The position numbers and the translations under genes are program-made. The notes beneath the pieces were generated by a model. That model ran no database searches. It was not told the origin of the DNA and saw only the letters and a list, made by a program, of their open reading frames with translations. Shown piece by piece: positions 22,666-59,739 of a stretch of 64,000 nt of DNA. This DNA comes from Prorocentrum cordatum (taxonomy: Eukaryota > Sar > Dinophyceae > Prorocentrales > Prorocentraceae), in contig CAUYUJ010020615.1 of the NCBI GenBank assembly GCA_963575745.1, positions 336,736 to 400,735 on the forward strand, given 5' to 3'. Numbering within the stretch: position 1 is the first letter of the stretch; each line of letters begins with the position of its first letter.

Positions 22666-22784
22666 AACAAATCCCACCAGTCCTCTGGGCGCAGGTGGTC
22701 TAACGCGTTTCCCTTTCCAACCTCTTTCCTTTCCCTGCTCGGGAGGTTTACCTCCCCCCTTCTCCCTGGGTCTGAACGGGCTGA

Positions 22785-23053
22785 TTTGAAGGGGGGCGGG
22801 AGGCCCAACACGCAGCTTCGCCTAAAGCGAAGCCCAGAATCAATTCTGCTGTGCCGTAGTAACAATAATCCCACCAGTGTTGGAGATCGTCGCGGGAGCG
22901 ACGGGTCATGACAAGCAAAGATGTTTCCGCAGTCGATCTCATGTCGTGTGCCTCGCGATGAGGCGCGCTGATATGTTGGCGGCCGGCCGCTTGAGAACAA
23001 CCGGCCGCGGACAAACGCTCGCCATCTCTCGCCTTTGCCCCGGCCTCCTTTAG
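22785..23053 (-). repeat. 3' LTR-like segment
   Basis: A segment of about 269 bp shared with 38311-38583 and 59486-59739. It begins TTTGAAGGGG, includes GGGAGGCCCAAC, GCAGCTTCGCC, GCGGGAGCGACGGG and GGCGGCCGGCCGCTTGAGAA, and ends CCTTTAG. It lies directly after the RNase H end in the sense direction, while the other two copies lie upstream of gag. That arrangement is what defines it as an LTR. Confidence 0.65.
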
Positions 23054-23138
23054 CGTCGGGGGGGAGGAGACGAAGCGTGAGTCCGCCGCCCGCTATAAGT
23101 AAACACTGCATACACAAGGTAGGCAGCAGCAGGCGGGT

Positions 23139-23744
23139 TCAACAAGGAAGGTTGACCTGGACGCATATGCCTTGCAAGCAAGTTGCCTCGCAGGCAAATC
23201 GCCTTGCAGGCGATTGCTCCTCAGGCGGCTCAGACGATTTTGTCTGGCCAACCCTGTACGGAACTTGTCGTTTTAAATCGTGCTTGAAGGATTGCGTTCC
23301 TCCCGTGGCCTGTAAGAGCATATCTCTGTCGATGCTCCCTTTGGTGCGGCCGTCCGCAGTCATGTCGCGAGTGTCACACCACTGTGCACCATGCACGATG
23401 ACTCGCTCCATCTTCTGTCGTATCCAACTGATATGGCCCAGAAAAGTACACGCAGTCGGTTTCTTCAGGTCTTTGCCTGACAAAGACTTGAAGACCTATT
23501 CCGCATCGATGGCCAAGGTGACCTTAATGCCCAGGCCGCCCATCTCAAGTATACCTTTCAACTGAGTGGGTATCAGCGGCCCTGCGTGGAGTTCGCGCAG
23601 AGTGACGATCGTGGGATAGCAGTCCTCCAAGTTATGGGTTGCTGCTCGTGTTTCTGCTGAGTAGCTCGAGCGGACCTGCAATCGGTGAGACTTGCAGTGC
23701 GTCGGTAAGATGGACGACAAGCTTACCAGCAGGCGTGTTTCCAT
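23139..23744 (-). pseudogene. Copia RNase H domain with an internal stop
   Basis: A single frame holds VRSSYSAETRAA, LEDCYPTIVTLREL, KVTLAIDAE, a TAG at 23493-23495, then VFKSLSGKDLK, LGHISWIRQ, WCDTRDMTADGRTKGSIDRD and a basic tail. These match the RNase H domain that ends copia Pol proteins, with WCDTRDMTADG as the hallmark C-terminal block. The Asp after AI (TLAIDAE) and the following Asp block are kept. The nonsense codon separates the two halves, so no intact enzyme is made. The preceding reverse transcriptase segment is in other frames. Confidence 0.8.
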
Positions 23745-24745
23745 GCCGTAGCAGTTTTGACCCGCGAGTACCAGCCTTTGACCTCGCCCTCGGCATCTCC
23801 ACTACGACGCCGGTAGCCGGAGTCGCTGCGCAGGTCGACCTCGCCCGTTGGAGTCTTCGATCGGTAGACGATCTCCTTAGGCAAGCCTGCAACTTTCTGG
23901 CAATCGCGTTCAGTCGTCGCACTTCCATGTTTGTCGGTTCTTGGACACGTTGCAGGGATGCAACATATGCCATCGACCACACCTGCGAGATTAAGGCGTA
24001 CGCCAATACGCCTCTCAGGCTGACAAACATGTCAGCGACCATATTTGATGCCTTGGCGTCAGCGTCTGCGCCAGTGACTGCAGGGTGTTGTATAGGACGG
24101 CGCTGTTCTATGTATTCGTCTTGATCAAGTGTAACGTTACCGTCCCCATCCGCTGTGTACTTCGCAGCACAATTTGCACGCGTGTTTGTTGAGTTTACAG
24201 TTGCCCAAGATATCCTCCACACACTTGGCGCACTTGTCGACGGTGACCTCTGCGCCGTCCATATTGATATCATCAACGTGCTTGGCTGTAAGAAGGTTAG
24301 AACTCGTCTCGAATTCCTCGTCATAGGACGCGGGTATGAGCACACGCCCTCCCGCGGTCTTCCTGGGCTTCAGCGACAGGGCTCTAGGCGCGCCCTTAGT
24401 GCCGGTGCCTGGTTTGAGGCACTGCACGCAGTGCTTCGACTCATCGCGGTGCTCAAATCCTGGGAGGGTCCTAAGCGCAGATGCTGATCCAGGCGGCAAT
24501 GTAAAGCGCGCCGCACGTTCCTTTTCACCGGCTGCTTCAGCAAGTTCCTGGTAGGTGGGTCCCTTCAGGAAAGCCATGTTGATGCCGAGGGAAGCAATGA
24601 TCCATTGCATCTCACACGCTGCCACGCTTGCAAGTAGTCTCTGGCTTGACCGCCGTGCCATCCCTGAGTGAGCCTCCACGTCGTAGGCTTCGAGGCCCAT
24701 GAAACCCCGAAGTACTAGGCGTAGTAGTCCAATGGTCCTCTCCAT
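23745..24745 (-). pseudogene. Copia reverse transcriptase, frameshifted and catalytically altered
   Basis: The frame at 24745-24137 gives AACEMQWIIASLGINMAFLK, YQELAEAAGEKERAARFTLP, CLKPGTGTKGAPRALSL and LLTAKHVDDINMDG. These are the ordered motifs of copia reverse transcriptase. The usual Asp in the SLDINMAF-type motif is Gly here (residue 54 of this frame). The catalytic box is HVDD (24269-24280) rather than YVDD. Sequence continues in another frame (SLRGVLAYALISQ, VRRLNAIARKLQ; about 24170-23870) and then a third (RSDSGYRRRSGDAEGEVKG; about 23860-23780). At least three frame changes make it non-functional. Confidence 0.85.
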
Positions 24746-25458
24746 CTCGCCCTGCTCGTTCTAGGCCGACTTCTACTTACAAGCGCATCTTGAAGTCATG
24801 ATGTTTGACGCCTTCGATCTATCTTGCATTTGAAAACACCCGTTGTCAAACAATCTCTTCAAATCACTGTATAAGGCTTTAGCTACATTGACTGGGTTCG
24901 CCCGGATGTCGGCCTTCGCGGGTAGGTCGTCCTCCTTGACGACTGCAGCTCGTTCGGCGGCAGCGGTCGCCTATGCTCGCATAGCGGTCACGCGGTTGAA
25001 GTGCAATGTGTTGTGTTGTGATTCGGATCGGACTACCCTTGACATGTCTGCAGCGAAGCAAAGCTCTACAGACTGCCCATGCTCGTCAATGTCCAATCCG
25101 GAAGTGTCGTCTTCGTCCGCGAAGCACAGCGGGGCACGATCTGTCTCCGTGGCGTCGATGCGGGATGACCCCCCGTAGGCAGGTGCCCCCGCTGTTCTTC
25201 AGCTACTGCGACCAGCACACTGTTGTCGGTGATCATCTGCGCGGGTGCAGCGTAGAGGTCGTCTATTGGAGTTGCCTCCAGTAGCCCTTGATCCCCCCCC
25301 CCCCCCGCAGTTCAGTGCGCCGCACATCCATGATATGTGCCTTAAGGTCCGCATCTGATTTCTCATGAGTAATGGGAAGCCGCCCGTCCTCCTGTGGCGG
25401 TTCCGCTTCTGGAGCTTCTCTGGCGTCGTTGTCTTGTGTCGATGCGTCAGCCAGTTCT
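24746..25458 (-). other. Linker between integrase and reverse transcriptase regions
   Basis: No domain is recognised. The segment lies where copia elements carry a poorly conserved connection. A C run of 13 occurs at about 25294-25306, and one copy of the 14-nt hairpin motif at 25179-25192. Minus-strand frames (25263-25472, KFEELADASTQDN) are acidic and short, as expected for a linker. Confidence 0.4.
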
Positions 25459-26066
25459 TCAAACTTCGCCATGTCCTGGTCGAAGCCCGCTTGAGTGAGT
25501 GGATTTCAGACAGTGGATGATCCCCGGATGTGCTGCTACAGTTATACCGTATCTGTTTAAAGCAGCGCCTCCAGCTTCGTAGTAGTGGAAGCCTGGATCC
25601 ACGTCGTTGTCATAGTGCACCAGCGTGCAACTGCCAGCGTAAGCCACTAGAGGTAGCTTGCGAATGCTCTTAGCAAACCTGACGAAGACTACGTTCTCGA
25701 TGCCAAAGACGACCATGATGAAGTATTGAAAAGATAAATGTATTTTAGGAGATAGTCGGCTCGCACTTGTCATCTGGGACGCTCCCTGTGGTCCGGATGT
25801 AGCCAAATGTCATAACAAGTCGCCCCGCAGGTAGACTGGCGATGAATGCCAGCACCGCCCGTAGTGCAGCGTTGTCTGAGCCAATTTCTCGAGCGACCAA
25901 AGCTTCGATGCATAGTGAATGCCGTGCGTCGCCATTTGGACTTGTACATCGCGGTCTCGACACTTGCCGGGATCATTTCGTGCGACCGGGAAAGGGGCAT
26001 TCCAGCTTCCCCAATCGTCCTGTGTAGTAGTGGGACGATGGTAATCAACCAAGTCTCCTTCGTCAT
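25459..26066 (-). pseudogene. Post-integrase region of copia Pol, frameshifted
   Basis: Protein-like sequence is spread over three frames: VDYHRPTTTQDDWGSWNAPF (about 26050-25980), RHSLCIEALVAREIGSDNAA (about 25925-25850), IASLPAGRLVMTFGY (25845-25800) and FQYFIMVVFGIENVVFVRFA (about 25740-25660). Its position directly after integrase and the repeated frame changes identify it as the decayed C-terminal integrase extension of the same element. No catalytic function is expected. Confidence 0.55.
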
Positions 26067-26157
26067 GGTCGTGCTTGCTGACCAGTGATAGTGGTCTCGG
26101 TCCGTAATGCGCGGTTGGCGTTGGCTACTGCAGTGGATTGAGTGATAGCCTCAACAC

Positions 26158-26923
26158 TTACCCGGCGGATAATCTGCCCTCGAGAGTGGTCGGATGTTTC
26201 TGTCTGCTGTTCATGGCCCGGAACATGCAAGTCGGGTAGCATCGCTGGTTGCCGTCTAATACGCGAGAAACCTTACTGTAAAAAGTAAGCGCGCTGGCGT
26301 CAAATAAGCATGCAGTAATCGTGCGAACAAGACATAGGTATAAACTGTTGAGTTCAGCTTCCACGACGCGAAGTAAGTGTCGTAGTATGCCACTTCTGGC
26401 GTCGATTGTTGCAGCTAGTTGTCCACGCGCACGCATGCTCAGCTCAGCGCCTTCTGCCTTAAATGACTGCATGTGCGGTGTCGTTGTTAAGTGCGCCCTC
26501 CCCGTCGGAGTGAAATATTCTGGCGCGTCCGAATTGCATCCAGCACTGGTGATGCGCATCTAAGTTGCTGGTCATAGTTTTACCTGGTATCTTAATTCCA
26601 GCACCATGTCGAATGCAACGATCAATTATAAGTAATGGATTGTGTCCCTGTTTGTAGAACATGAGACCACATTCGGCTTCTTCGTTCAATTTGCCAGGTA
26701 GCGCAGTAGACGGATGCCCTGGCTTGTCCCAAGCCCTGCACTCCCGACGTGTATCACAGACGCCCTGTATCAAGTTCAGCCAGACGTTGTCCAGACCAGC
26801 CCTGGATAAGACGAGTCGCATCTTACGCTCTTTGGCGTGGAACCACCGTACGTGTAGTTGTCCAAACTCGCGCGTTACCACGCTTGGGTCAAGGCTGCGT
26901 AGGTTATGTAGACTAATTTCCAC
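26158..26923 (-). pseudogene. Copia integrase core with GAG-pre-integrase segment
   Basis: The first frame (26923-26459) holds RWFHAKERKMRLVLSRAGLD and VCDTRRECRAWDKPGH, a zinc-binding-type GAG-pre-integrase region. It is followed by ECGLMFYK, LLIIDRCIRH and FHSDGEGALN. The second frame (26559-26158) continues with SFKAEGAELSMRARGQ and IDARSGILRHLL. In the D-D-E integrase fold the first Asp normally precedes LMFYK; here that residue is Gly. The HSDGE Asp is kept. At least one frameshift lies near 26480. It integrates element cDNA when intact; this copy is dead. Confidence 0.8.
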
Positions 26924-26954
26924 ATCGAACCCTGGCCAGTCTGGAAGTCATGGA

Positions 26955-27639
26955 CTAGCAGCAGGGTCGCCCGCAGGTGGTGGTGGAGGCGGGTCTCCTT
27001 AGGAACACGTCACGTGCAATCTGAACTGCTTCGACGAAGAGGGACGGCATCTTCGGATTATATCGGGCTGCTCTGGCCAGTTCTTTGATACAAGCCGAGG
27101 CGTGCTGATGACGGCCCGTGCACCGCTTCCTCTCGGCGGGTGTCAGTAAGAGACGGTGGTTGGCCTTGCCTCGATAGGTTTGCGATGCCCAATGGGAGCC
27201 GGCGAAGGCCCGTAGAACATGGGTCCAAGTCAGTTTTGCAAGTGCCCTCGCGCTTGGGCGACGTAGTCCATGGTGGTATTTCGTCCACCCAAATGCCCGC
27301 TGGTTGTTCTCGTAAGTGAAACCGTCGGAGACCATTCTGCCGCGCGGCAACCCTTCCACCATAACTTGATGTGTGGAAGTTCTTCCGTGTGGTGGTCATG
27401 CCGCGTGCCGCAGTTGACATTGGAATTGAAGTGCGACGGCAGTCCAGTCGTTCTGCAGTTAGGATGCAATACAACAACGTAGACGAAGGACACATCCAAG
27501 TAGTGCATAACTGCGCACTGGACTTCCTTGCTGCCGAAATCAACATCTGAACGTTTGTCGAGGTGTCCTCCTGATGATCAACCACGGCTGAAAAACCTAG
27601 CTGCGATATTGCCCCCTGATTGCCCCCTTGCCTCCGCAA
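26955..27639 (-). pseudogene. Pre-integrase region of the copia polyprotein, frameshifted
   Basis: Two overlapping frames (27639-27058 and 27362-26955) share the coding potential. The second gives GLPRGRMVSDGFTYENNQRAFG, KLTWTHVLRAFAGSHW and ARYNPKMPSLFVEAVQIARD and leads into the integrase region. It probably covers the protease-to-integrase connection. I see no aspartic protease DSG/DTG motif in it. Its assignment rests on position and on continuity with the integrase segment. Confidence 0.45.
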
Positions 27640-28086
27640 AATTCCAGCATGTCTACCTCGTTATGTAGTCCAGAGCACAAAGTCGGGATGATAGAAAACA
27701 CATCGGCGCGTGCATTTGCAGGTGACCCCGCTGGCAGCGCGCTGATTGGAGGGCGAAGGAGGGGGTCTGCAACAGGGGGTCTTCAATGGGGGCTGAATGG
27801 CCCATGTATGCTCAATGTATCGCTCATGTATGTGATCGGGTACGATTGGCATCCAATGCTGGCGGTCATTGGTGGCCAGTCATTCGTGCCCGCGCGTTGC
27901 CCGCGCGGGCACACGAGCCGTCCATCCATTATCGTTCATGCGCGCGGGCGTTCTTGCATATTGCGCGTGGGTCGGCGAAGTGGAGTGCAAGTGTGTCTTG
28001 ATTGTGCGGTTGATGATCGCGTATGTTCCCAAACGATGACTTCTCGACCCCCAAGACAGATTTGGAATGGGCCCCGCGATTCTCCA

Positions 28087-28309
28087 AAAATGTGCATTCA
28101 CATTTTCCCTTCTCCCAAAATGTGAATTCACATTTTCCTTTTTCCCAAAATGTGAATTCACATCCTGGCCCCTTCATAAAGAATCCTACACAAAATTCCA
28201 AAATGTGAATTCACATTTTCCTTTTTCCCAAAATGTGAATTCACATTTTCCTTTTTCCCAAAATGTGAATTCACATTTTGCTTTTCCCCACAGTGTGAAT
28301 TCACATTTT
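28087..28309. repeat. 30-bp tandem array of a perfect 20-bp palindrome
   Basis: AAAATGTGAATTCACATTTT is a perfect palindrome with an EcoRI core. Copies start at 28087, 28117, 28147, 28200, 28230, 28260 and 28290. Spacing is exactly 30 bp except for one 53-bp step that holds a non-repeat insert. The spacer is CCTTTTTCCC or close variants. The first and last copies each carry a base change and the third is truncated at its right arm. The array lies within the large copia element between the accessory region and integrase. Confidence 0.97.
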
Positions 28310-28577
28310 GCCCTGGCCTTCAAGATCCCCCGAGCTGAGGCGCAGCGTTCCGCATGCCAGATTGGCTGGGCAGATTTCGACACTCACCCGACCGCTTTCG
28401 CGTGTTCCAGCCTGTTCTTGTTGCGCCCTTAGCGCACGTTGCCTTCGTCGCCTTTCCCGAGCCCCCCGCCCCCTTGCTTCCTTCCCCCTCAAGTCTCGCG
28501 CGCGGGTGCAGGCGGGGGGCTTCAATTAGTTCCCCCGCCGAACACAGCAATCGACGATGCATCGCCCATTCATGACT

Positions 28578-29198
28578 TTAGAAGACATCATTGCCGGGAC
28601 CCTGCGCCCGACCCCCACTTCCACCCTCCAAACTGAGGGTTCCCCCATCGCCGTCCTTGCCGGTGTCTAGGGGAACGTCGGTGTAAAGGGCGCCACGCCC
28701 GGAGCCCTTCAAGTCCCCGCCGCCGTCGTCGTTGCCGTCTCCGACTACTTCGGGTATCTTGCGTGGTTTGACGTCGGCTTCTTTGCCCACCTTCTGCTTT
28801 CCTTTTGCTTGATCAGGGCACCCGTTGGTGCGGCTCTGTTTTTCTGCGTCGGGCGAAGCAAGTGTCGGGAATTCGGGAATAAGGGGTTGCGCGCGGCCGC
28901 GCTCAATCGAGGGGGGGCGGCGATCGTCATCGACGGTCGCAACCCGCCTTGGACGCGGTCGCTGCCCCTCGCTTTCGAGCAGGACTGGCGCCGGAGGCTC
29001 CCAGCACAATCGAACACGAATGTTCGTCACACCATTGGGTAAAGGCGCATTGTAATTGTACCCGGTAGGTTGATCCTGAACCTGAATGTCTTGTACAATC
29101 GTATTGTCGCCGAGGGTCATCGTCACCCGTCGCGCCGCATGGCCCCATTGAGGGCCATTGTTGGGAGACTGGACGTAAGTCCGAGATGGCATGTCCAC
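28578..29198 (-). CDS. Unknown ORF inside the copia accessory region, 206 codons
   Basis: The first 85 residues look like a folded domain (RRVTMTLGDNTIVQDIQVQD, YNYNAPLPNGVTNIRVRLCW). The rest is charged and Gly/Asp-rich, probably disordered. It is intact from its first ATG, but its extent is set only by stops. It lies on the sense strand of the large element, downstream of the RING region. I do not recognise the N-terminal domain. It may be a surviving fragment of the long element polyprotein. Confidence 0.4.
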   Translation of the reverse strand: MDMPSRTYVQSPNNGPQWGHAARRVTMTLGDNTIVQDIQVQDQPTGYNYNAPLPNGVTNIRVRLCWEPPAPVLLESEGQRPRPRRVATVDDDRRPPSIERGRAQPLIPEFPTLASPDAEKQSRTNGCPDQAKGKQKVGKEADVKPRKIPEVVGDGNDDGGGDLKGSGRGALYTDVPLDTGKDGDGGTLSLEGGSGGRAQGPGNDVF

Positions 29199-30289
29199 TC
29201 ATGTGTAGGCGCTTAGGTGTACAACACATGTACGATGCCAGTGATCTGTGGTAATATATCTGGTCAAGCGAATGTTTTGTTTCTCCACTCCCTCTGGGCA
29301 CGCTGGCCATGCCAGCCTAACGCATGCTCGGCGCGTTGCGCGGGTTTCCCTGCAGTTTGCGCGTGCACTTCCGAAGGTCGGTGGGGATGCGCGCGTAGGT
29401 AAACGCTACCTGTGGGCACGAAGCGCTCGGAAAACGACTTAAACGGTCGAACTTCAGACCGAAGTGGCAGCATCGCATGCGCATGACCTGCAAGCCTAAA
29501 TATCCAATCGTATCTCGTATAGGACGTAACTTCCAGAAGTATCCAGGAGGCCCCACAAGTACGATCGACGTACGTAGAGCCCGAGCTTTGGAAAATAATA
29601 TTTGGGATGCTCTATAGCATAGAAAGAATTTGTTATCTAATCATTGGCGTCGCCAACCCCCCGGCCAACCCCGGCCAACCCTTATGAGCAACGCGCTGCC
29701 AACTTGGGCGACGACGGACCCGGCCAACTTTCCTGCCCAACCCCCGGGTCGGGAATCTTCTGGCCCGGGTCAATCCAGACCCGGGTCAGCAGGAGACCAA
29801 GAACTGCAATGCAAGGAAAAAAAAACTGCAACGCAGGTCTTCGCAAACGAGCGGCTCGCTAACCCGGATCAGCCAGAGGGGGGGGTCTTCGCGGGATCTC
29901 GCAGGATCCGGCGCCCTGGCCGAGCCCCGTTTGCACTGACCCCCGCCTCGAGGCCCCCGACCGGAGATCGAGCCAAACCTCCCGGCCAAGCCCCTCTGGC
30001 CAAGCCTGGTTAGACCAATTCTTTCCATAAGATATAATACGTTGATCACGTGGCCCCGCCCGCTTTCCAGGCAAGCGCAGATGCCAGTCAGCGGGCGTTG
30101 CCACCCACAGTAGATTGGTAATCCCGTGAAAATAATCCACCCAAGCACTGTGCACCAGTAGAGGCCATAACCTCTGCGCGAGCAATGCGATCATACATGT
30201 CTCCTCGAGCGCGGAGTTCAGCGCAAGCTGATCGCATATCTTCCACAACAAGGGCACGAGAGCGACAATGATGAGACGAGCGTTCATGT
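29199..30289. other. Accessory region, no domain seen
   Basis: Within the large element. The segment 29645-29790 is rich in CCGGCCAACC and CCCGGGTC words with several short inverted repeats (GACCCGGGTC around 29765-29785). No frame on the sense strand is convincing. Confidence 0.4.
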
Positions 30290-30826
30290 TCAACGGCTGC
30301 CGCGCAGCCAGGTCCGCCGCTGCCCCTGGCGCGCGCAGCCCGCGTGGGAAAGAATGGCTGTGGCGCGCGCCTGCCCCCGCCACTCGTTTTCAAGCGATGG
30401 GGGCGCCCAGACGCCCGTGCCACGGTTCCCTGAACCACTTCTCGAAGTAAAAATGTCACACTTCTCGGCAGCGTCGCTCACTACAGCAGGTGCCCCAGCT
30501 GCGTTGTCGGACGGCGCCCACTTGCTGCCCTCTTCATAGATAGCCAGGTAAACCATCGCCTGCAAGTGCCGCAAGGCGAAGTCCTGATCGGCAGGCGCGG
30601 GGGTGTTCCCATGCGTCGTATTCCTGCGATGCCAGTTATTGAGGGTGTTGCTCACCATAGACTGGATCACGTAGGAAAACGCCACCTCGTTGATGGAGAA
30701 ACTGATGCCCCATGTGTCGTGGGACATCGTATTTGCGCGGGGGTCGTTAGTGGCGGGTGCCCCCCCATCGCCAGAAGCAGGTGGCCCCGCCATCGGCGCC
30801 ACTTCTGCGACACCCTTGATGAGCAC
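30290..30826 (-). CDS. Unknown ORF inside the copia accessory region, 178 codons
   Basis: The central part is protein-like: DTWGISFSINEVAFSYVIQS, MVSNTLNNWHRRN and FALRHLQAMVYLAIYEEGSK. The N-terminus is Gly/Pro/Ala-rich and includes AGPPASG, which is encoded by one copy of the 14-nt hairpin motif (30777-30790); a second copy lies at 30486-30499. Likely a fragment of the element polyprotein. Function unknown. Confidence 0.4.
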   Translation of the reverse strand: MLIKGVAEVAPMAGPPASGDGGAPATNDPRANTMSHDTWGISFSINEVAFSYVIQSMVSNTLNNWHRRNTTHGNTPAPADQDFALRHLQAMVYLAIYEEGSKWAPSDNAAGAPAVVSDAAEKCDIFTSRSGSGNRGTGVWAPPSLENEWRGQARATAILSHAGCARQGQRRTWLRGSR

Positions 30827-31031
30827 GGGCGTCTCCTCGCACCGAGAGTTGGCTGCGACAGTAAAGGCTATCGAGCCATTGGCCTCTGTTGCGACCCCAC
30901 CTCGTCGACCATTGTGGCCAAGTGCCCTGGTGGTGCCTTCATCAAGTCAATCACCCTGGCGCCTTTACCACGGAGGAGCCTGTGAATGTCCGTGCCTGGG
31001 ATGACCATCTTCTCATGTCCCTGTTCAAGGA

Positions 31032-32375
31032 TCAACATAGCGCGCATGTTTGACATACTCCTAAAGCCCAGGATTGCAAGGATATTCTCGCCATGTCCCT
31101 CGGCCACACTGGCCGAGTGTCTAACCTGGCAATAGCGGGTGTCCCCGCGGAGTCGCCTCTGTCCTTGCATGCGATCCTGCAGTGCACCGACTTGCCGCAA
31201 ACGGCGGCTCCATGCCCCACTCCAGACACATGCAGCCTCTTTGTCAGATCCAACTGCTTGATACCATGACCACGGGGGCGTGGAACTCGCTCGGATGTCT
31301 GTGCAGTTGCACACCAATGGGGCCGATGTTGCTGCCGATGTCCAATCAGATACTCAGCGCACCATCCACTGCCATGCGGCGTGATGCCGTGGATTGTGCG
31401 AAGCGAGTGCATGCTTCTGTCAATGGCTCTCCCCATACGCCGCACCCATGCCTTATTGGCAGGCAACCCTGCTGGCGTCGTCCTGGCAGGTGCCCCTGCA
31501 GTAGCTGCTGATTCGGCGACCAGGGGCATTTGCACTTCAGTGGCTGGCATCGCGGCTGTTAGATCCTGCCGAACATAGGAGGATGAAGCAGGTTGCCCAG
31601 CGGATACAGCTGGCTCTGCAGCAACTGAAGTGCCTGTCATCATCGCAGTGATGCGGCCCAACTCTTCACGGAGGTCTCTGAATTCAGTTGCCCCGCGGAA
31701 TATTTCTCCATGTCGGTCCGCTCCAACGCCCCCCCCCCCCCCAAGGGCATAATGAAGTTCAGCTGCGGCGAGGCCTACGCCCCCGCAAATGGCACTTAGC
31801 GCCTCGCTTGGTGCACCTTCCAGCCGTCGATCCACGCGTGCGTGCGCCACGCGGTCTAAGCACTGCGCATGAAATATATGTTCACGCTGAAGCCTTCGCA
31901 CCTTGTCGCGGCATGCGAACTCTTCCAGGCATATGACACATCTAGCAAAACCACCGTCATTTATGGTTGGCGGCGTTGTCGATGGCCTGACACGCGTCTG
32001 TCGCTCAAGCGCGGGTTCTCCCATCTCATGCCGACTCGGTGGGAGTGCAGGTGCCATTTGCGGCGCCACAGGCATTGCTCCCATCGCAACCGCTGTGGAT
32101 AGACTCATAGCAGGTTGCCCCGCAGCCGAAGGAGCAGCGGGTGCCCCGCACGATTCGCCACGCGGCGTAGCCGTCGCTCCTGATTGCGGCGTTGGCGAGC
32201 CAGTTGCGTTGAGTGGTTGGCCTGCTGCGCCTCGTGGATGGCCAGGATCTCGGGGCGCAACTCCCCCGTCGGCGTGGGTGCCACTAACTCTGGGCCGTGA
32301 TGTTTGACCTCCTGATCCATGGGAGCTGCCAAGTACCCGCAATGGGGCACCTGGCCTGGGATGCCCGATTCGCAT
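31032..32375 (-). CDS. Element-encoded protein with a degenerate RING-H2 finger
   Basis: A 447-codon frame. Residues 146-197 read CVICLEEF, then a basic stretch, EHIFHAQC, and finally SAIC. In a RING-H2 domain eight ligands are expected. Here Cys146, Cys149, His166, His169, Cys172 and Cys197 are present, but the third position is Arg164 and the seventh is Ser194. RING domains bind two zincs and usually recruit E2 ubiquitin-conjugating enzymes; with two ligands lost this copy is probably inactive. AGQPA/AGAPA words at several places come from the 14-nt hairpin motif. A competing frame at 32105-32536 (TQLARQRRNQERRLRR) looks genuine upstream, so a frameshift near 32.15 kb is likely. It lies between gag and integrase. 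Confidence 0.6.
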   Translation of the reverse strand: MRIGHPRPGAPLRVLGSSHGSGGQTSRPRVSGTHADGGVAPRDPGHPRGAAGQPLNATGSPTPQSGATATPRGESCGAPAAPSAAGQPAMSLSTAVAMGAMPVAPQMAPALPPSRHEMGEPALERQTRVRPSTTPPTINDGGFARCVICLEEFACRDKVRRLQREHIFHAQCLDRVAHARVDRRLEGAPSEALSAICGGVGLAAAELHYALGGGGGVGADRHGEIFRGATEFRDLREELGRITAMMTGTSVAAEPAVSAGQPASSSYVRQDLTAAMPATEVQMPLVAESAATAGAPARTTPAGLPANKAWVRRMGRAIDRSMHSLRTIHGITPHGSGWCAEYLIGHRQQHRPHWCATAQTSERVPRPRGHGIKQLDLTKRLHVSGVGHGAAVCGKSVHCRIACKDRGDSAGTPAIARLDTRPVWPRDMARISLQSWALGVCQTCALC

Positions 32376-32745
32376 CCGGCTCCGCGCGTCAACTGGGACC
32401 GATAAACATCATCAGCCGTTGCCCGAACGCACGGGCTCTCGGGCTGAATGCCGACCCGAAGAACGCCAATCTCCTGAATGTAACAGTCGGAAAAACAGAA
32501 GCGCATCCATAGGCGGTGCAACATGTCTTTCAGCAACCGTTGGGTCGTACGTCGGGTGACTGAAGAATGCTGGCATGCATCCGTCTGTGAGGATGCTCAG
32601 GTGATGGATTCACGTCTGAAATGCATTCCCAAGGGGGGGTCCAGCTTGCGCTCGGGAGGTCAATGCCGCCCCGCCTCAGATTCTTCAAAACCTCGCGCGT
32701 CTGCCTGTGCATCCACTGCTGCTGCCCCAAGAGGCTCTCGGCCAT

Positions 32746-34090
32746 CTAGGCAGACCCCTGGTCTGCAATAACAGGTTGCCCCGCAGAAGCACGTGGAGAT
32801 GCACGTGGCGGTGTAGTTTGCAAGGCTTGGTAAAGCTGAAGATCCACCCTGATACTCTGGAGTCTGGCCTGCAGACTGTTTGTGCTCCCAGCGCTCTGCG
32901 GAGCGCCGAATGGGGTCGCGGCCCTGCTCGTAAGTGCGAGTGCGGCAGGTGGCCCCGCAGGTGCCGGCAACTGCTCTGCCTGGTTGCGCCGCGGGTCGCT
33001 CGCAGACAGTCCGCCGTTAGGCGCGACTCCGCTGGATGTCATGCTAGACAGGTCAGCACTCTTAGCTTGGGCCCGTGACCCATTCGAGCCTCCCGCAGGT
33101 GCCCCCGCTTGACGCGCCTCTTGCATCGTGAACGCAGAGGCGCGTTCCACCTCCGACACAGGTGTCGAGACAGGGGCCTTGAGGTTGCAAGGAGTCCTAG
33201 GCGCAATCCATCCTTTCAATGTTGAAGCATCGTGTGGGTACTCATAGTACTCCTTTGGTACGCAAGTCGATTCATGCAGGTTGCCCCGCTGGTTGTCTAC
33301 AATATAAAATTCGTTGACCCGCGCCTGTCCAAGTCGATCGTATTTGCATTGAACACTGTTAGGCTTGATGCCAAGCAGTTGACCCATATGGCTTGGCGGA
33401 ATCCTGCCACGGATACGCGACGTCATGATAACGTCGTCGGCAGACCGCCAAACAGAGATGTCGTCGCGAAGTAGATTCTTGAGGCTCACCATCGGACTCC
33501 ATCCGCAAGCCTGATTGGATCCGCCCATCTCTAGGTAAGTATGGGCATCCGTGAATCAACTGCCTGTCTCTCCCTCTGGCATTGTCCTCACTGCGGCAAG
33601 ACAGACCAACGTGTGGTATGTTCGGGACGTTTACCCATTGCGCGCCGTGGATGAAGTAGCTTGGCGCTCCCGGTTCGTTCGGGTCGGTTACCCGTGAGCA
33701 CAGATATTCTGGGCGTCTGATGCCTGGGTTGCTGCGTCCGCTGCTGGGGCGCAAGAAATAAGTCGGGCGGGCTTCCCCGCAAAATTTAAGCATCTTCACC
33801 TGAAATCTGTTCTTCTGGATGCTGGAGTCGTCGATCATTCCGCTGAGGTTGAGCACGGCCAATGCCTGATAAGCCCAGTGCCGGCCTCGGAGGCATCTCT
33901 TGATGGCGCCCGGGTGATGGCCGCGCCAGTGCTCGCGTCCTGGCGGCCAATGTTCCAGCTGATCTCCGAGGCCCACCCTCCTGCCGTCGAGCTCGTCGTA
34001 CGAGGTGACGCAACTGATGAACCGATCGGAGAGCCTATCGTGGTGCAACGCTCGTGCCGCGTGGCTCCGGTGAGCCACTCCGATCAACAA
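32746..34090 (-). pseudogene. Accessory ORFs of the copia element, frameshifted
   Basis: Two overlapping frames. The upstream one (34090-33359) holds FISCVTSYDELDGRRVGLGD and NRFQVKMLKFCGEARPTYFL. The downstream one (33528-32746) holds SLKNLLRDDISVWRSADDVI, IRGRIPPSHMGQLLGIKPNS and KYDRLGQARVNEFYIVDNQRG, then an Ala/Pro/Ser-rich tail. The last block has the look of a small folded domain (hydrophobic beta pattern around VNEFYIVD). Hairpin motifs occur at 32771, 32945, 33095, 33276 and 33767. I do not recognise a family. They are probably pieces of one long polyprotein. Confidence 0.4.
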
Positions 34091-34264
34091 CGCTTGTCGC
34101 GTTCGCTCGGGGGCCTCGTGCGGGAATGCTCATCATGCAATATCTGAACTACGCAGTCCTCCTCGGGCTCGAAGCTAAGGGCAGGTTCCCTCCGCAAAAC
34201 ACTGCGGACACGCTGGCGATCGAGAGTATCTGACGGCGCGTTCCACATTGCGTTGTGCCACCCT

Positions 34265-35303
34265 TCAGCGACCAGAGCCGTCGGGGGCCTGGGGCCTGTA
34301 GGCGGGGTTGACCAGCATCTGGTTAATGGTTCCCAGGGTCCCCCAGAATCGCCTGCCTCCTTCTGTCACTTCAAGGGTAGTAGCAGGTTGCCACACAGGA
34401 GCAGCCGCTGGTTCAGCAGGTGCCCTTGCAGGAGTAGCGGCTAGTTCAGCGGCCGCCCGCCGTGGCGCCGCAGCCGCGGCGGGCGCCGCAGATGAGCTAG
34501 CACTCTCAGGTGCCTCCCCTTTTTCGCGGATGTCGCGGCACTGGCGCCCGGTGATCTTTGGAGCAGCTCTGGGTGCTCTCGACGTGGTCTGCAGCACTCG
34601 CTGCAAGGAGGCCCCCCTGGTTGCGCCGTCCAGCGATGGATCCTGCCAGGAGTTGGGCCGCTCAGTATGCAGGGCCCTTCGGCGTAGGTGCGCTGCTGCC
34701 TTGGAACGCCGATGCTGCCGCGGCCACTGCCGGCCCCCTGGGACGCCGTCTGCCGGCGGGTTTCCCCGCAGACTTTTGTGTCTTGTTGTTTCCAGGGTCG
34801 GCTTCCGCCGAACCGTTCCTTTTCTTGTGTCTAGATGATGGGAGAATTGGTAACCTTAGCGCACTTGGTGATGGGGATGATGCGACGTCATTCTCAATCG
34901 CTTCTTTGGAGGATTCGGGAACCTGGGCGATTCATCAGCGGGCGCCCCCCGCGTTTGACGATGCCGCAGGTTCCCCCGCATCTCTTGATGGGGATCTCTC
35001 CGGAGTAGGACTCCTTTTTGATATGTAAAGTGGCGCGTTCATGATCTCGGCCCTGTTCCTGGCGGCCAACTGATAATGTACATTGTCCAACTTGCGCGCT
35101 ACCTTGGCGCCTAGCGATCGAATTTCTCCGGCATGATACGACGCCCGAGTACCAGGCGCTAAGTCCATGTCCTCCGTCACTGGTTGAGTGATGTCCAACT
35201 CCGCATCTGCTATCCCGCTGCTATAGGGATATCCTGAATCACGAGCAGCAGCATTAGGGTCAAATGCATCAGCATGGACAGGGCATCGGCCATCGGAGGA
35301 CAA
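34265..35303 (-). pseudogene. Accessory region: low-complexity and short coding-like pieces
   Basis: On the sense strand, 35303-34935 includes GTRASYHAGEIRSLGAKVAR and VHYQLAARNRAEIMNAPLYI. The frame at 34606-34265 is an Ala/Pro-rich stretch ending RRFWGTLGTINQMLVNPAYR. Both look like remnants of the element polyprotein, broken by stops and frame changes. Hairpin motifs at 34416, 34756, 34938 and 34966 fall inside. Confidence 0.35.
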
Positions 35304-36162
35304 GCACCCCGATGAAAAGAAGAAGCGGGTTGCCCCGCGGGTGATGCCTCAGCCACCATTTCATGATATCCTCGGTAGTGTCTCTTGAGGCGGCGATTAC
35401 TGTCGAGGTACTTCCACCTTCGCTCGGCGAGTTTCGCCTCGTCTTCGGTGATCGGCTGGTAATCATATTTGGTCAAGCGCCGTTTAGGGAGATGGTTAGT
35501 CGGAACCACCTTGCGAGCCAAACCATGTCCAGAAGACCAGATCCACGGTGTTTTCCCAAAGTTCGGGCTCCTTGACGGACGCCCCATTGGACGCGCGGGT
35601 CTGCGGTCTGCAAAATGCTCACAGTTGCCGACCAGGCACCTGTAGTCCTCTCGGTCCTGAATAATGACCCTTTTAGGTCCCTTCTTGCAGGCGCAGGAAC
35701 CGAATGTGTACCAAAACCTCTGTTGGCACGGACAATCTTGCCATCACCACCGCGCGTAATATTGCGAAGTGAGTGCCAGCCTTCGTCGAGTAATGGAATA
35801 CGTAGGCGAGCCAGCCCATGATCTTCGTAGCTGACGAGACGCTGCACGCCTGGGCCATCGTCCTGAGGCGGGTTTCCCCGCGAGCGTTCCCTTCTGGGCG
35901 GAGCCCTCGGGGCCCTCGCGCCAGGGGGGCGCGGGCGCTGCGCGCCACTAGAGCGAGCGCGCGAGCGCCCGCGCGAACGACTCCGACCATGGCGCTGCGG
36001 GCGGTGACTCTCAGCTCCCCATTCGTCTTCGCCATCATCTCTGCGACGCGCGCGTCTCCGAACTGGGCGGCTCGTGGACCGGTCGCGCATCGCGAACATG
36101 AAACGACGGCCTTCGCCACGCCCAAGTTCATATTGGATGCGTTCGGAAAAGGTCACCAGCAT
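35210..36162 (-). pseudogene. Accessory region with RS-rich segment
   Basis: The frame 36162-35473 begins VTFSERIQYELGRGEGRRFM. It passes through an Arg/Ser-rich stretch (HGRSRSRGRSRARSSGAQR) and then a more ordered one (LARLRIPLLDEGWHSLRN, IVRANRGFGTHSVPAP). The frame 35587-35210 continues with KVVPTNHLPKRRLTKYDYQP and KLAERRWKYLDSNRRLKRHY. The RS-rich part is typical of RNA-binding or nuclear proteins, but its role in an element is unknown. Hairpin motifs occur at 35325, 35868 and 36166. Confidence 0.4.
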
Positions 36163-36269
36163 CTCGCGGGCTTCCCCGCAAAAAGGTCGTCGTCGTATGT
36201 TTCTCCATATGCCGGATTACCGATGACCTGCGGGTGGGGCATCAATTGTAGCTCCTCTCTGCTGCTGGG

Positions 36270-36960
36270 ATTGTGGCATCAGAGTCCGCGGGTGCCCCCG
36301 CCAGCTCGCGGTCCGAACCGGCGGGCGCGTTGGAATCCTCGTCGAACGCAATCTGCGCTGGCTGCCCCGCAATGGGGGTGCCCAGCCAGTCCGCCAAGAT
36401 GATCTCGCGGTGGCCGACGTAGATCTCCTAAGAGAGCTCGCCGGCGCATCTCTCGAGGGACACGCCGGCGCTTAGGTATCTGGCGGCCGCGAAATGGACA
36501 GCGGCAGCGGGGGCGTCTTCGGGCTCGGCTAATAGCGCATCCCAATCGACATACTGAATATCCGAATCGGTTTGAGCCGAATGTATCGACGGACCCCTGC
36601 CCCCCCCTATCGCCTCGGGGGCATTCGCGACGGAAATGTTGTGCAAAGGCAGATATCGCATTCCATGGTTTTACCGTTGGCATCTTTCGGGCGGCCCCGA
36701 CGTGCCTCGCCCCTTCCCGAGGCGCGCCGACGGCCTCCACCTGCCCCCCGGGAACGTTTCTTCTCATTGTGGCCCGCTAAGGGATGCCACGAATGCCAGC
36801 GTACCTCTGTCATGTAGTCGCCGTCGTTTGCCTTTACCCTCGCCCCCCACCGTTACCCTTTGCTCTGAACTCCCGTCGGAGAGGACGTCGTATCTTACGA
36901 ACTGGATTCTTCATAAAGCGTCTCCAGCGGCGTTTCTGCCATCCTAAAGATAACCATTGC
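36270..36960 (-). pseudogene. Gag C-terminal region with remnant zinc knuckle
   Basis: The sense strand carries a very basic stretch (about 36960-36840: KRRWRRFMKNPVRKIRRPLR) and then RWHSWHPLAGHNEKKRS at about 36800-36755. The spacing of His residues resembles a CCHC zinc knuckle (C-x2-C-x4-H-x4-C) in which the cysteines have mutated. A further piece (36661-36428, QYVDWDALLAEPEDAPAAAV) follows. This is the expected place for the nucleic-acid-binding end of Gag. Assignment is by position and spacing only. Confidence 0.4.
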
Positions 36961-38262
36961 GCCTGTTGCTCTTTTGCGAGATGCGTAAGCATGTCGGACT
37001 AATCTAAGGTGCCGATTCCGTCATCTGATGACGTGTCGGCGTCTGTTCCAGAGTCAGAAACGGACCCGGCGAATTGCCCCGCTGAACCTACAATGGTAGC
37101 GGTTTGGGCAGGGACCGCTGTTGTCGACGGTCCCTGACATCGAGCCCAGGAGTCTTGCAGACCCGAAGGCTGGCCACCATGTTGAGCTAATACAGTGGTG
37201 GCTTCTGTTGGTTGTGGATCCTCGTTCTAGACAAAGGTTTCGGCGCGATGGCCATGACGAAATATACCACCGATGTTGCCAAGGGTTCGCTCGGCAATGT
37301 GAGCATAGGACCTCGTGCGTTCTTGTAGAGAGTCACATTGTTGATGAGTCCTTGGGAGTTGGTGGTTGGGTGGTTCTAGTAGACGTTGTGCACGCGACGT
37401 ACCCACTCCCAGAGCCCTGAACAGGATGACTGTCAGGATCTGGAAGTTGGGGACACTGAAACCTGCGGATTCGGCCTCGAAGAGGGCTATCTACAAGCGT
37501 GCGAACGTCCGGTCGATCCGCTCTCCCGCATAGGCGCGTTCAAGTGGCGTTCCTCCTCTAGATTCTCAAACTTAGTGCTTAGGAAGAACGTGATGTAGGC
37601 GACGCCGTCAGCTGGCAATGCTGCGGGACATGCGCACACACTGTCGCATGTTCACGCCAGAGTTGATGATTTCAGCAGGTACTCTCATGCCTATAGTCCT
37701 TGCGAGTCCTCCCAGACCTTGTGCAGCGGCCCGTTGGGAGAGGGTCGTAGCGCCCGTGGTCACGTTGATCCAGGCGTGTACCTCGCAAACGAATTCGCGG
37801 AAAAGCACGTTGCCGGCAAGATCCCAGTGGGGGCCGGTTGCGCGTGCGTCGTCTCCGCCACGCTGCATGTGCCCCACAGCGCATCCGGCCGCGACCCACA
37901 GGAGGCCGAATATGGTAATATCAATCCAGTGCCCCCCTAAGTCGCGGTCGGACGTTTGTGGCTGCGGGTTGTGGCGCGTTGTAATTCGCCTGCGTAAGGG
38001 TGGAGGCGGCACAATGTCGCGTCGAATGTTGTCATGCATTGCGTCTGCAAAAAAAGCTTCCAAGTGGAGTACGAGGGTGGGCTTCAGGAGTGTAGTAGCG
38101 TGGGGAAGCGGGACCCATGTAAGAGGCTTCCGTGAGAACGGAGGTAGCACTGAAAGTGTCCTTGCGGTTGTGCGTAGTTATGTACATTCCTCCGCGCAGA
38201 CCCACTGCACCATGATGTTCCGCCATGCTCAGTACAGTAGTCCACCAGATAATGCTGTGCAT
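36961..38262 (-). pseudogene. Gag-like protein of the copia element, frameshifted
   Basis: An ATG at 38262, 35 nt past the primer-binding site, opens a frame with WWTTVLSMAEHHGAVGLRGG. The frame shifts near an A run at about 38050. It continues as RRDIVPPPP, HWIDITIFGLLWVAAGCAVG, FREFVCEVHAWINVTTGAT and GLARTIGMRVPAEIINSGVN (38150-37608), and then decays. It is clearly related to the better-preserved copy at 58109-59404, which shows the missing middle (MLARFEIACYEAEAAGLC). A distorted hairpin motif at 37069 is shared with the 58-kb copy at the same protein position. Confidence 0.6.
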
Positions 38263-38296
38263 GGTGAGTAGAGCTAGAGCTGACCACCATAGGCCA

Positions 38297-38308
38297 GCTC
38301 CGCTACCA
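38297..38308 (-). other. Primer-binding site of the copia element
   Basis: The sense strand reads TGGTAGCGGAGC, two or three bases inside the 5' LTR edge. It starts with TGG, complementary to the CCA tail of a tRNA, and resembles the initiator-tRNA-Met primer sites (TGGTAGCAGAG/TGGTATCAGAG) common in copia elements. The identical site occurs at 59472-59483 in the related fragment. Confidence 0.6.
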
Positions 38309-38310
38309 AG

Positions 38311-38583
38311 TTTGAAAGAGGGGGCCGGGAGGCCCAACCAGCAGCTTCGCCCAAGGCGAAGCCCATCGTCAGTTCTGCTGTATCAGAGCAGCGATAACCC
38401 CAAAAGTAAGAGATCGCCGCGGGAGCGACGGGCCATGTCAAACGAATACGCTTGTGGTCCCAATGACAAGTAACGTGCCTCGCGATGAGGCGCACTCATA
38501 TGTTGGCGGCCGGCCGCTTGAGAACAAACGGCCGCGGACAAACGCTCGCTATCTCTCGCCTTTGCCCCGGCCTCCTTTAGAGT
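38311..38583 (-). repeat. 5' LTR-like segment of the copia element
   Basis: About 273 bp shared with 22785-23053 and 59486-59739. It lies immediately upstream of the primer-binding site and gag in the sense direction. Its outer edge (CTTTAGAGT) is also the edge of the 59-kb copy, and beyond it both loci run into CCAAGA-type satellite. Confidence 0.65.
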
Positions 38584-38599
38584 GGGCTCCCCCGCGATG

Positions 38600-57355: not shown

Positions 57356-58108
57356 GACGGCTCAAGAAGCTTCCAAGGCCGCCCCAAGAGAGCCTAAGAC
57401 GCCTCCAAGACGGCCCAAGAGGGGCCCAAGCAGGGGATCACGAACCGAACATTCGATATCTGTGCATCGAGAAGCCCCCAGGAGGCTCCAATAGATCGCC
57501 AAGAGGCCCCAAGAGGCGCCCAATACGCACCCAAGAGGCCTCCAAGAGGCCCAAAACATACCCCACGAGGCCCTCTTGAGGCGCCCAAACCGCCTCCAAG
57601 AGGGCCCCGAGAGGCTCCCCACGACACCAAAGCACATAGACAAGAGGCCTCGACCCACAACCCAGGCACGGTGGCGGGATGAACCGAAGGCCACTAGGAT
57701 CCGTCGCCCCTTGTTGCTTGCAAGAGGGGTGCCTGGCGTGCCAAATCCTATCGCTTTTGGTTTTGGTTCTCTTTCCCCCAAAACACCCCCTGGGGCTTCG
57801 GCCCGTTCCGCCAGGGTCCCAGAAGGCCGCGTAAACAACCTCAGCGTCCACACAAAATCCTCCAAGACGGCTCAAGGTGGCCTCCAAGATGGCCATATTG
57901 GCCCAAGATGGCCTCCAAGATGGTCCAAGTCCGCCCAAGATGGTCCAAGACGGCCTCCAAGACGGCCTAAGAGAGTCCAAGATACCTCCAAGTCCGCTCA
58001 AGAAGCATCCAAGACGGCCCGAGAGGCCTCTAAGAGGTCCTCCAGGAGGGCCCGAAGAGGCCCAAAGCACTGAGTTGCCTTTGGTGTTTGATGGATTTTG
58101 ACATTTGC
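57356..58108 (+). repeat. CCAAGA-type satellite with embedded unique block
   Basis: CCAAGACGGCC/CCAAGAGGCC words lie at 57356-57620 and 57860-58075. The block 57690-57830 (CGCCCC, GGGGTGCCTGGCGTGC, GGTTTTGGTTCT, TGGGGCTTCGGCCC) is shared with 61050-61160. The array runs straight into the truncated gag fragment at about 58109. Confidence 0.88.
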
Positions 58109-59404: not shown

Positions 59405-59471
59405 GTCTGTAGTCCACCAAATAGTGCCGTGGATGGTGAGGAGTAGATCAAGAGCTTACCACCATAGGCCA

Positions 59472-59483
59472 GCTCCGCTACCA
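59472..59483 (-). other. Primer-binding site of the gag fragment
   Basis: Sense strand TGGTAGCGGAGC, identical to 38297-38308 and in the same position next to the LTR edge. Confidence 0.6.
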
Positions 59484-59485
59484 AG

Positions 59486-59739
59486 TTTGAAAGGGGTTGG
59501 GAGGCCCAACCAGCAGCTTCACCTTAGGCGAAGCCCAGCTCCCGCTCTGTTGTACCATAGTAACGATCGTCCCAGTAGTAGGGGGCGAGCCATCTCAAAC
59601 AGTGTTTTGGTACCGATGGCAAATAGTACACCTCGCGCTGAGGTGTAGTCAGATCTCTGGGCGGCCGGCCGCTTTGAGCCAAGCAGCCGCGGATGCACGC
59701 TCGTTCCACTCACATGCAACGCCCAGCTCACTTTAGAGT
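59486..59739 (-). repeat. 5' LTR-like segment of the truncated copy
   Basis: About 254 bp sharing TTTGAAAGGGG, GGGAGGCCCAACCAGCAGCT, GGCGGCCGGCCGCTT and CTTTAGAGT with 38311-38583. It is more diverged in the middle. Beyond its outer edge the CCAAGA-type satellite begins at once. Confidence 0.65.

Follow-up and report, generated by a model that had tools for sequence, protein, structure and literature searches.

A sense-strand RNA hairpin of fixed geometry distributed along copia-like retrotransposons of Prorocentrum cordatum

The retroviral packaging signal Psi lies in the 5' leader and is present in one or few copies, and the GACG loops of murine leukemia virus Psi are readable by retroviral nucleocapsid. 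The GNRA tetraloop is a textbook motif, and the GC clusters of yeast mitochondria and the palindromic elements of Rickettsia are short mobile palindromes that form many hairpins, also within open reading frames (ORFs). Short stem-loops dispersed along viral RNAs have been proposed to bind coat protein, with Gag-like proteins named as possible further users (PMC6281560, in excerpt); their part in assembly is debated, the excerpted text of PMC6281560 arguing for it and that of PMC6475782 against. Here, we describe an array of 14-nucleotide (nt) hairpins in long terminal repeat (LTR) retroelements of the dinoflagellate Prorocentrum cordatum. The stretch analyzed, hereafter the window, comprises 64,000 nt of contig CAUYUJ010020615.1 (positions 336,736 to 400,735, assembly GCA_963575745.1) and carries a decayed copia-like element, e1, on its minus strand (22790..38590), and a second element, e2. 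The hairpin data come from the window and its own genome, a single species. Comparison of element copies demonstrates, at the level of sequence, that a sense-strand RNA hairpin whose geometry is fixed is under selection throughout the coding RNA of the elements, because the hairpins pair with variable stems, show compensatory changes, lack shared synonymous polymorphism, and are read in three frames. Together with their restriction to the sense strand, these properties agree with an initial annotation of the window, made from its letters alone, which held that selection or spread acts on nucleotides.

Geometry and pairing of the hairpins

The window contains 20 occurrences of the recurring pattern GCRGGNNNNCCYGC where 1.04 would be expected, and 0 of 100 shuffles reach 20 (shuffles of our own followed a first-order chain). 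When the loop is included (GCRGGGNNRCCYGC), e1 (22790-38590) holds 18 sense copies (0.0 expected) and 1 antisense copy (0.05 expected), and the rest of the window holds 1, within e2. Across the 4,128,499,153-base assembly (21,875 contigs), GCRGGNNNNCCYGC, which is its own reverse complement, is found at 144,794 places compared with 78,071 for the pattern read backwards, and the directional GCGGGGNMACCCGC at 28,106 (13,459 + 14,647) compared with 1,521 (766 + 755) for its reversed control; the first places listed for GCGGGGNMACCCGC lie mostly in dense clusters on one strand. The count is far above control, contrary to the outcome that the initial annotation had named as fatal to its claim, a number no higher than base composition predicts.

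In its general form the hairpin is GC-NNN-[G N M R]-N'N'N'-GC, 14 nt in all: a 5-bp stem with outer pairs G-C and C-G, inner pairs that vary from copy to copy while complementarity is kept, and a GNMR tetraloop, often GNRA or GNCA. The stem GCGGG/CCYGC, by which the motif was initially defined, is present and is not obligatory, other complementary triplets serving as well. Likewise, its loops, at first read as GNRA in many cases, are mostly G-N-(A/C)-(A/G), with strict GNRA in part of the copies only.

A less decayed relative with long ORFs (C1:2045000-2061700) carries 27 canonical copies. When GCGGG is not required, its sense strand holds 38 further 5-bp G-N-(A/C)-(A/G) hairpins against 8.0 expected, compared with 9 against 9.1 on the antisense strand; with GNMR loops and Watson-Crick stems there are 37 against 0.03 expected, 13 of which have stems other than GGG/AGG. 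The clearest case is the C26 element (C26:415001-431000), with 31 sense and 0 antisense hairpins where 0.2 were expected. Its stems vary by site (GCTCG/CGAGC, GCTGG/CCAGC, GCCTG/CAGGC, GCAGG/CCTGC, GCACG/CGTGC, GCGTG/CACGC, GCGAG/CTCGC, and GCGGG/CCCGC). In L3, the third old family, 14 hairpins are sense and 2 antisense, and the GNMR-loop hairpins of C1, e1, and e2 lie on the sense strand only. The array was seen in all five element families examined, a single RNA carrying as many as about 50 hairpins; whole-element counts for e1, L3, C1, and C26 refer to one copy each (C26 plus 1.2 kb of a relative).

Loop length is similarly constrained. Watson-Crick tetraloop hairpins with GC-start stems number 52 in C1 (1.7 expected), 36 in C26 (1.0), 15 in e1 (2.4), and 12 in L3 (1.9) on the sense strand, and loops of other lengths exceed expectation slightly at most in C1 (up to 6 versus 2.0) and C26 (up to 5 versus 1.1 to 1.3). 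Among these tetraloops, 31/36 in C26 are GNRA (GAAA, GCAA, GAGA, GTAA, GGAA), and 31/52 in C1 are GNCA (mainly GCCA and GTCA), not GNRA. Pairing itself was assessed on all GCnnnGNMRnnnGC frames, paired or not, with G-U allowed and the expectation obtained by re-dealing the 3' triplets. Inner triplets pair in 31/39 frames of C26 (7.3 when re-dealt), 46/58 of C1 (18.7), 21/44 of e1 (12.0), 13/33 of L3 (2.6), and 4/4 of e2 (2.2), compared with 0/34 antisense frames. Perfect stems in so many unrelated sequences could also be mutational in origin, if fold-back template switching by reverse transcriptase (RT) perfected near-palindromes without any function; reverse transcription occurs in every cycle and might impart a strand bias. 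Such a process does not predict the fixed GC outer end, the GNMR loop, the strong preference for four-base loops, or a stem that mostly ends at five pairs (in a raw count, a sixth is complementary in 15/98 hairpins), nor the lack of shared third-position polymorphism described below, and we consider it unlikely.

Outside the elements (C1 flanks included), the minus strand holds 4 GNMR hairpins against 0.57 expected and the plus strand 0 against 0.53. A looser rule finds 12 on the minus and 3 on the plus strand, several in a satellite at 1.5 to 3.0 kb. In this satellite-like array (1524-3012), several GCCATGGCAATGGC-type sequences on the minus strand satisfy the hairpin rule, probably as a by-product of the repeat.

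Compensatory change, codon choice, and copy number

At homologous sites of C1 and e1, in blocks with DNA identity of 0.57 to 0.65, stems differ while pairing is kept: GCGTT/AACGC in C1 corresponds to GCGCG/CGCGC in e1, GCGGT/ATCGC to GCAGT/ATTGC, GCAAG/CTTGC to GCGGG/CCTGC, and GCGAG/CTCGC to GCGAG/CTTGC. Seven of the 16 C1 motif hairpins with a gap-free e1 alignment keep five pairs, all seven with altered stem letters, compared with 10/57 other sense hairpins and 9/67 antisense hairpins; in the e1-to-C1 direction the corresponding fractions are 5/7, 12/61, and 9/65. The sites that fail to pair are real misses; e1 has decayed, and the alignment is poor in parts of gag. One site in the alignment of RT reads GCAGG/CTTGC in L3, GCAAG/CTTGC in C1, and GCGGG/CCTGC in e1, and at another L3 and C1 have GCGTG/CACGC in common, with a mismatch in e1. 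C26 and its relative C78 (70% identical over 1.2 kb) have GCTGG/CCAGC and GCTCG/CGAGC at one site; elsewhere three hairpins are kept with the same stem, one is lost, and one is paired with its first loop base changed.

The gag region allows a wider comparison. Of 2399 first-look candidates for e2 relatives, 40 were scored (e2 itself included), and e2 was aligned with 27 of the 39 others, giving 28 rows. Four sites with four different stems are intact in 18, 18, 17, and 19 of these rows; the C1 stems at the four sites are GCGGG, GCGGG, GCGGG, and GCGGA. Adding e1 and five C1-family stretches gave 34 rows, reduced to 33 by leaving out L079, most of which is not homologous. In this alignment 94.4% of cells are paired, compared with 26 to 41% when the sites are slid, and 0/500 shuffles reach 94.4%. 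The three gap-free sites rank 1 to 3 among 935 fourteen-column windows, and site 3, which spans gap columns, is 92.9% paired. Two-sided changes occur in 7/20 pairs and 25 cells, a cell count reached by 0/500 shuffles and compared with 3 to 14 in slid versions; four C1-family rows, nearly identical to one another, supply most of these cells, which therefore represent few events. Another well-paired 14-column window in gag alignment A2, starting at column 1411 (0-based), reads GGGTC-GCAA-GACTC in e2, with two two-sided pairs and a non-GC start; it is possibly a hairpin of another stem type.

Synonymous sites were compared in a C1 family set, the best 30 of 40 scored copies (787 candidates; query copy included), each about 5.2 kb long and 94 to 100% identical, with 14 motifs in 28 copies and 13 in two. 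Shared polymorphism at third codon positions is found in 0/56 motif columns compared with 224/1678 elsewhere. All 19 canonical copies in C1 ORF2 read as AGxPA, which on its own would fit a protein-level repeat, such as a linker or protease cleavage site, of which the DNA motif is a by-product. Across the four C1 ORFs, 23/25 AGxPA are encoded GCG GGG NNA CCY, although the same ORFs use other codons freely outside the motif (Ala GCG 118/491, Gly GGG 64/364, Pro CCC 60/403), and the base that follows the 14 nt is unconstrained. Some copies in C1 gag and RT stand in frames other than AGxPA, and in C26 other frames dominate: in xGNy peptides, x and y have codons compatible with reverse complements in 24/31 cases against 5.7 to 7.3 expected, a count in which a few peptides may be in the wrong frame, as some ORFs overlap. 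The longest-ORF frame also varies among e1 copies (CGEAR, RGNPP, RGNLH), which places the motif in three reading frames, as first noticed in the window and now seen in C1 ORF frames as well. Codon choice, third-position data, and the C26 frames rule out a protein linker or cleavage site as the full explanation, and a protein-level origin is very improbable. The possibility that the motif arises only from conserved protein sequence, which the initial annotation had set against its own claim, is thus contradicted by the codons used at AGxPA and by the variable, paired stems of C26. Hairpins in C1 and C26 are spread through gag, ORF2, the integrase region, and RT ORFs. Some lie beyond long ORFs: the first nucleotide of C1 2061426 is the last of the RT stop codon, and C26 425655 and 425744 lie outside ORFs of at least 300 amino acids (aa). 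Hairpins probably settle where small residues are tolerated.

In relatives elsewhere (P0003 to P0013), xG[ND]y is consistent with reverse complements in 16/43 cases against 7.0 to 8.6 expected, yet the control xG[KEST]y is also raised (21/60 against 9.4 to 14.0). Several RT/integrase relatives from ENA and JGI (P0005, P0006, P0008, P0009, P0011) contain HGNV, HGDV, RGNV, or HGNL peptides, which could be the protein shadow of hairpins.

Many copies with apparently unrelated neighboring sequence, at occupied sites that differ between families, might suggest a micro-mobile hairpin, a self-inserting 14-nt element, as initially entertained. However, the copies keep one orientation (18 sense to 1 antisense in e1, 31 to 0 in C26), stem letters vary by site, and sites are common to diverged families. 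No clean 14-nt presence/absence pair was seen in the comparisons made, which were not an exhaustive genome search. Differences in number that could be read involve longer units: a relative has three and four hairpins (C2:1702390-1702510 and C2:1707730-1707860) where C1 has two and two, through tandem units that take in the flanks, measure about 30 and 24 nt, and encode linker peptides. Self-insertion is therefore highly unlikely.

Hairpins and host elements in the window

The ends of e1 are marked by a direct repeat of about 270 bp (22790-23059 and 38319-38586, 81.5%), and an RVT_2 match at 24140-24760, below cutoff, is a trace of its RT. Its gag-like region (36943..38548, minus strand) has 69% DNA identity with 58116-59703, within the gag region of e2 (57990..59703, minus strand), of which the 39 other copies scored have 83 to 90% identity. 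The corresponding ORFs of C1 are gag, a 2306-aa ORF2, a putative integrase ORF, and an RT ORF with copia-type RVT_2 (PF07727, E 2.5e-11). C1 gag has a CCHC zinc knuckle match (E 0.0016) just below the Pfam cutoff. ORF2 contains a RING finger (Pfam) and a KptA/Tpt1 match (PF01885, E 9.4e-15, C1:2050658-2051077, profile positions 56 to 177 only); to our knowledge, an RNA-repair enzyme domain within a copia-like polyprotein is unusual. The integrase ORF, which we take to be such from its position, gave no Pfam match in the part tested. In e1, the KptA/Tpt1-like homologous region (33386..33760, minus strand) aligns to C1 2050715-2051106, and window ORFs tested there gave no Pfam match. An ORF at 31035..32408 (minus strand) has a weak RING-finger match below Pfam cutoffs, clear in C1 ORF2; searching with this 458-aa ORF gave no protein at E 0.001 among 8000 scored.

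Of 26 hairpin positions listed in the initial annotation, 20 form all five pairs on the sense (minus) strand in a 14-nt register with G-U allowed, and four form four pairs; 34938 forms three pairs and 32137 two. Three copies had been overlooked (29340, 31135, and 58242, below). The pol part, in whose RT portion none had been noted, contains several hairpins, most with other stems; all those that follow are on the minus strand. GCGAG-GCAA-CTTGC (23178..23191) compares with GCGAG-GAAA-CTCGC at C1 2061407 and with GCATG-GCCA-CATGC nearby at L3 1228294, not aligned base to base. The weak hairpin GCGTG-GCAG-CGTGT (24614..24627) has a homologous C1 sequence that pairs 2/5 only, and GCGTG-GTAA-CGCGC (26870..26883) one that pairs 3/5 only. 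GCGGG-GGCA-CCTGC (25179..25192) corresponds to GCAAG-GCCA-CTTGC at C1 2059386 and GCAGG-GACA-CTTGC at L3 1226544; GCGAG-GGCA-CTTGC (27238..27251) to GCAAG-GTCA-CTTGC at C1 2056659; GCGGG-GTCA-CCTGC (27718..27731) to GCGGG-GCAA-CCCGC at C1 2056193; and GCGCG-GCCG-CGCGC (28889..28902) to GCGTT-GCCA-AACGC at C1 2055865, with two compensated pairs. GCGGG-GCGA-CTTGT (25815..25828), with three G-U pairs, corresponds to GCGGG-GAAA-CCCGC at C1 2058748, and its protein context, matched by eye, is similar to that of GCAGG-GAAA-CCTGC at C26 429996.

Further along e1 follow GCAGG-GAAA-CCCGC with one A-C mismatch (29340..29353), GCGGG-GCCA-CCTGC (30777..30790 and 32945..32958), GCGGG-GACA-CCCGC (31135..31148), GCAGG-GTTG-CCTGC (31459..31472), GCAGG-GGCA-CCTGC (31486..31499), GCGGG-GCAA-CCTGC (32110..32123, and 33276..33289 with longest ORF RGNLH), GCGGG-GCAA-CCTGT (32771..32784), and GCGGG-GGCA-CCTGC (33095..33108). 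GCGGG-GAAG-CCCGC (33767..33780 and 36166..36179) reads CGEAR in the longest ORF and GCGGG-GAAA-CCCGC (34756..34769 and 35868..35881) reads RGNPP; the remainder are GCGGG-GGAA-CCTGC (34966..34979), GCGGG-GCAA-CCCGC (35325..35338), GCGGG-GGCA-CCCGC (36288..36301), and, at gag site 4, GCGGG-GCAA-TTCGC with two G-U pairs (37069..37082). The second element, from which the motif had been thought absent, has four hairpins, one at each gag site: GCAAG-GACA-CTTGC at site 1 (59330..59343; C1 GCGGG-GCAA-CCCGC), GCATG-GAAA-CATGC at site 2 (59203..59216; C1 GCGGG-GCTA-CCCGC), GCAGG-GCAA-CTTGC at site 3 (58413..58426), and GCGGG-GCAG-CCTGC at site 4 (58242..58255; homologous C1 GCGGA-GTCA-TCCGC).

No Rfam family among 4227 matched window 22700-38700 at gathering score. 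In an RT search of viral contigs, 3 stretches fitted a pattern and none could be confirmed as related. Among 13 IMG/VR stretches with pair-pattern matches, the five read appear unrelated: L002, L011, and L012 are short tandem repeats, and L007 and L008 carry one different repeat, GCGGGGACGCCCGC, with nearly fixed flanks. For L007 and L008, 20 copies are listed each, many in common, nearly always after GGCGG and before CCCACC, in one orientation and all frames; the repeated sequence is longer than GCGGGGACGCCCGC and represents a separate family whose core is a hairpin.

Putative function and relation to known systems

That the motif might be an RNA packaging signal or a protein-binding stem, two suggestions of the initial annotation, is consistent with its sense-only, covarying, three-frame character, from which a function can be inferred. 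We tentatively propose that the stem-loops are recognition sites for the element's own Gag, used in packaging or condensation of genomic RNA. Each would be recognized by one RNA-binding protein, most likely Gag with its weakly matching CCHC knuckle, and the many sites along an approximately 15-kb genomic RNA would allow Gag to select, condense, and package that RNA into particles. Copies would settle largely in inter-domain linkers, as judged by eye, each family using a frame that it tolerates there (AGxPA in C1, xGNy in C26), and their number would change partly through short tandem duplication. The signal is proper to the element, extends over all of its genes, and keeps one orientation, and G-rich tetraloops on short stems are readable by retroviral nucleocapsid; for these reasons Gag is ranked first.

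Another reader of the hairpin is nearly as likely: a host RNA-binding protein, nuclear export, pausing of translation between domains, or the element's KptA/Tpt1-like or RING protein, with structure selected for a purpose other than packaging. All structural evidence applies equally here, many C1 copies lie in inter-domain linkers (judged by eye), and C1 carries both the KptA/Tpt1 match and the RING finger. However, copies also lie inside gag, in RT frames, at or beyond the RT stop, and outside long ORFs, none of which a pure translation role needs, and a host-wide signal would be expected elsewhere, whereas the remainder of the window shows no array of this kind (the four minus-strand hairpins noted above, some of them satellite).

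Several points weigh against recognition by Gag or against the statistics beneath it. The Gag structure model (mean predicted local distance difference test [pLDDT] score, 30.5) was too poor for a fold search or for recognizing a capsid fold, and a linker position would also fit a translation role. HIV packaging is said to survive a change of the GGAG loop (PMC7395439, in excerpt), and the portion of PMC6475782 at hand weighs against AxxA loops of satellite tobacco necrosis virus 1 (STNV-1) as packaging signals in vivo. Two-sided changes are also found in control C1/e1 hairpins; in gag, the 7 two-sided pairs are reached by 8/500 shuffles (slid versions give 2 to 6) and the 18 pair types are reached or exceeded in 95/500. 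Third-position singletons are similar in the motif (4/56) and elsewhere (154/1678), and are mostly expected as later decay. Other loop lengths are raised in decayed copies (e1 five-base, 8 versus 1.9; L3 seven-base, 9 versus 2.5). Eleven C1 hairpins may not be independent, since they overlap within two Ala/Pro-rich tandem runs, eight at 2057279-2057355 and three at 2055923-2055966. The single-copy readings of e1, L3, and C26 and the decay of e1 and L3 count on the same side.

It is plausible, though short of probable, that in an entire clade of eukaryotic retrotransposons the genomic RNA is a chain of protein-recognition hairpins, as many as about 50, superimposed on the protein code, which would amount to a distributed assembly code based on shape. 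What is recognized would be that shape, namely 5 bp with outer GC and a GNMR loop; stem letters would then be free, and proteins would carry reverse-complement codon pairs. In C26, coding sequence is bent by RNA structure to the point that such codon pairs are legible in protein. If true, tens of thousands of copies would constitute a genome-wide natural experiment.

Compared with the yeast GC clusters and Rickettsia elements, the array described here has one orientation, variable stems, compensatory change, and common sites. GNRA tetraloop hairpins resemble the C26 loops (31/36), and most C1 loops differ (31/52 GNCA). Retroviral Psi shares a short stem with a G-rich tetraloop that fits G-N-M-R, such as the HIV-1 GGAG loop read by zinc-knuckle nucleocapsid (PMC7395439, in excerpt); in contrast to a 5' untranslated leader, the hairpins here occur in many copies throughout ORFs. 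Among the open-access papers listed by our searches, at most 20 per search, none has a title or first abstract lines that set out an array of this type. Closest are the dispersed packaging signals of phage MS2 and hepatitis B virus pregenomic RNA (PMC6281560) and of STNV-1 (PMC6475782), which, as excerpted, likewise consist of many short stem-loops with a common loop motif and variable stems. As in those systems, many common-loop stem-loops run across the RNA and structure is conserved by compensation; the differences are the host, dinoflagellate LTR retrotransposons, the strict geometry of 5 bp and a four-base loop, and the covariation. The array is unusually clean, with one geometry, dozens of copies per RNA, and covarying stems in several diverged families of one genome, and the dispersed-signal idea is therefore directly testable by sequence statistics and simple binding assays.

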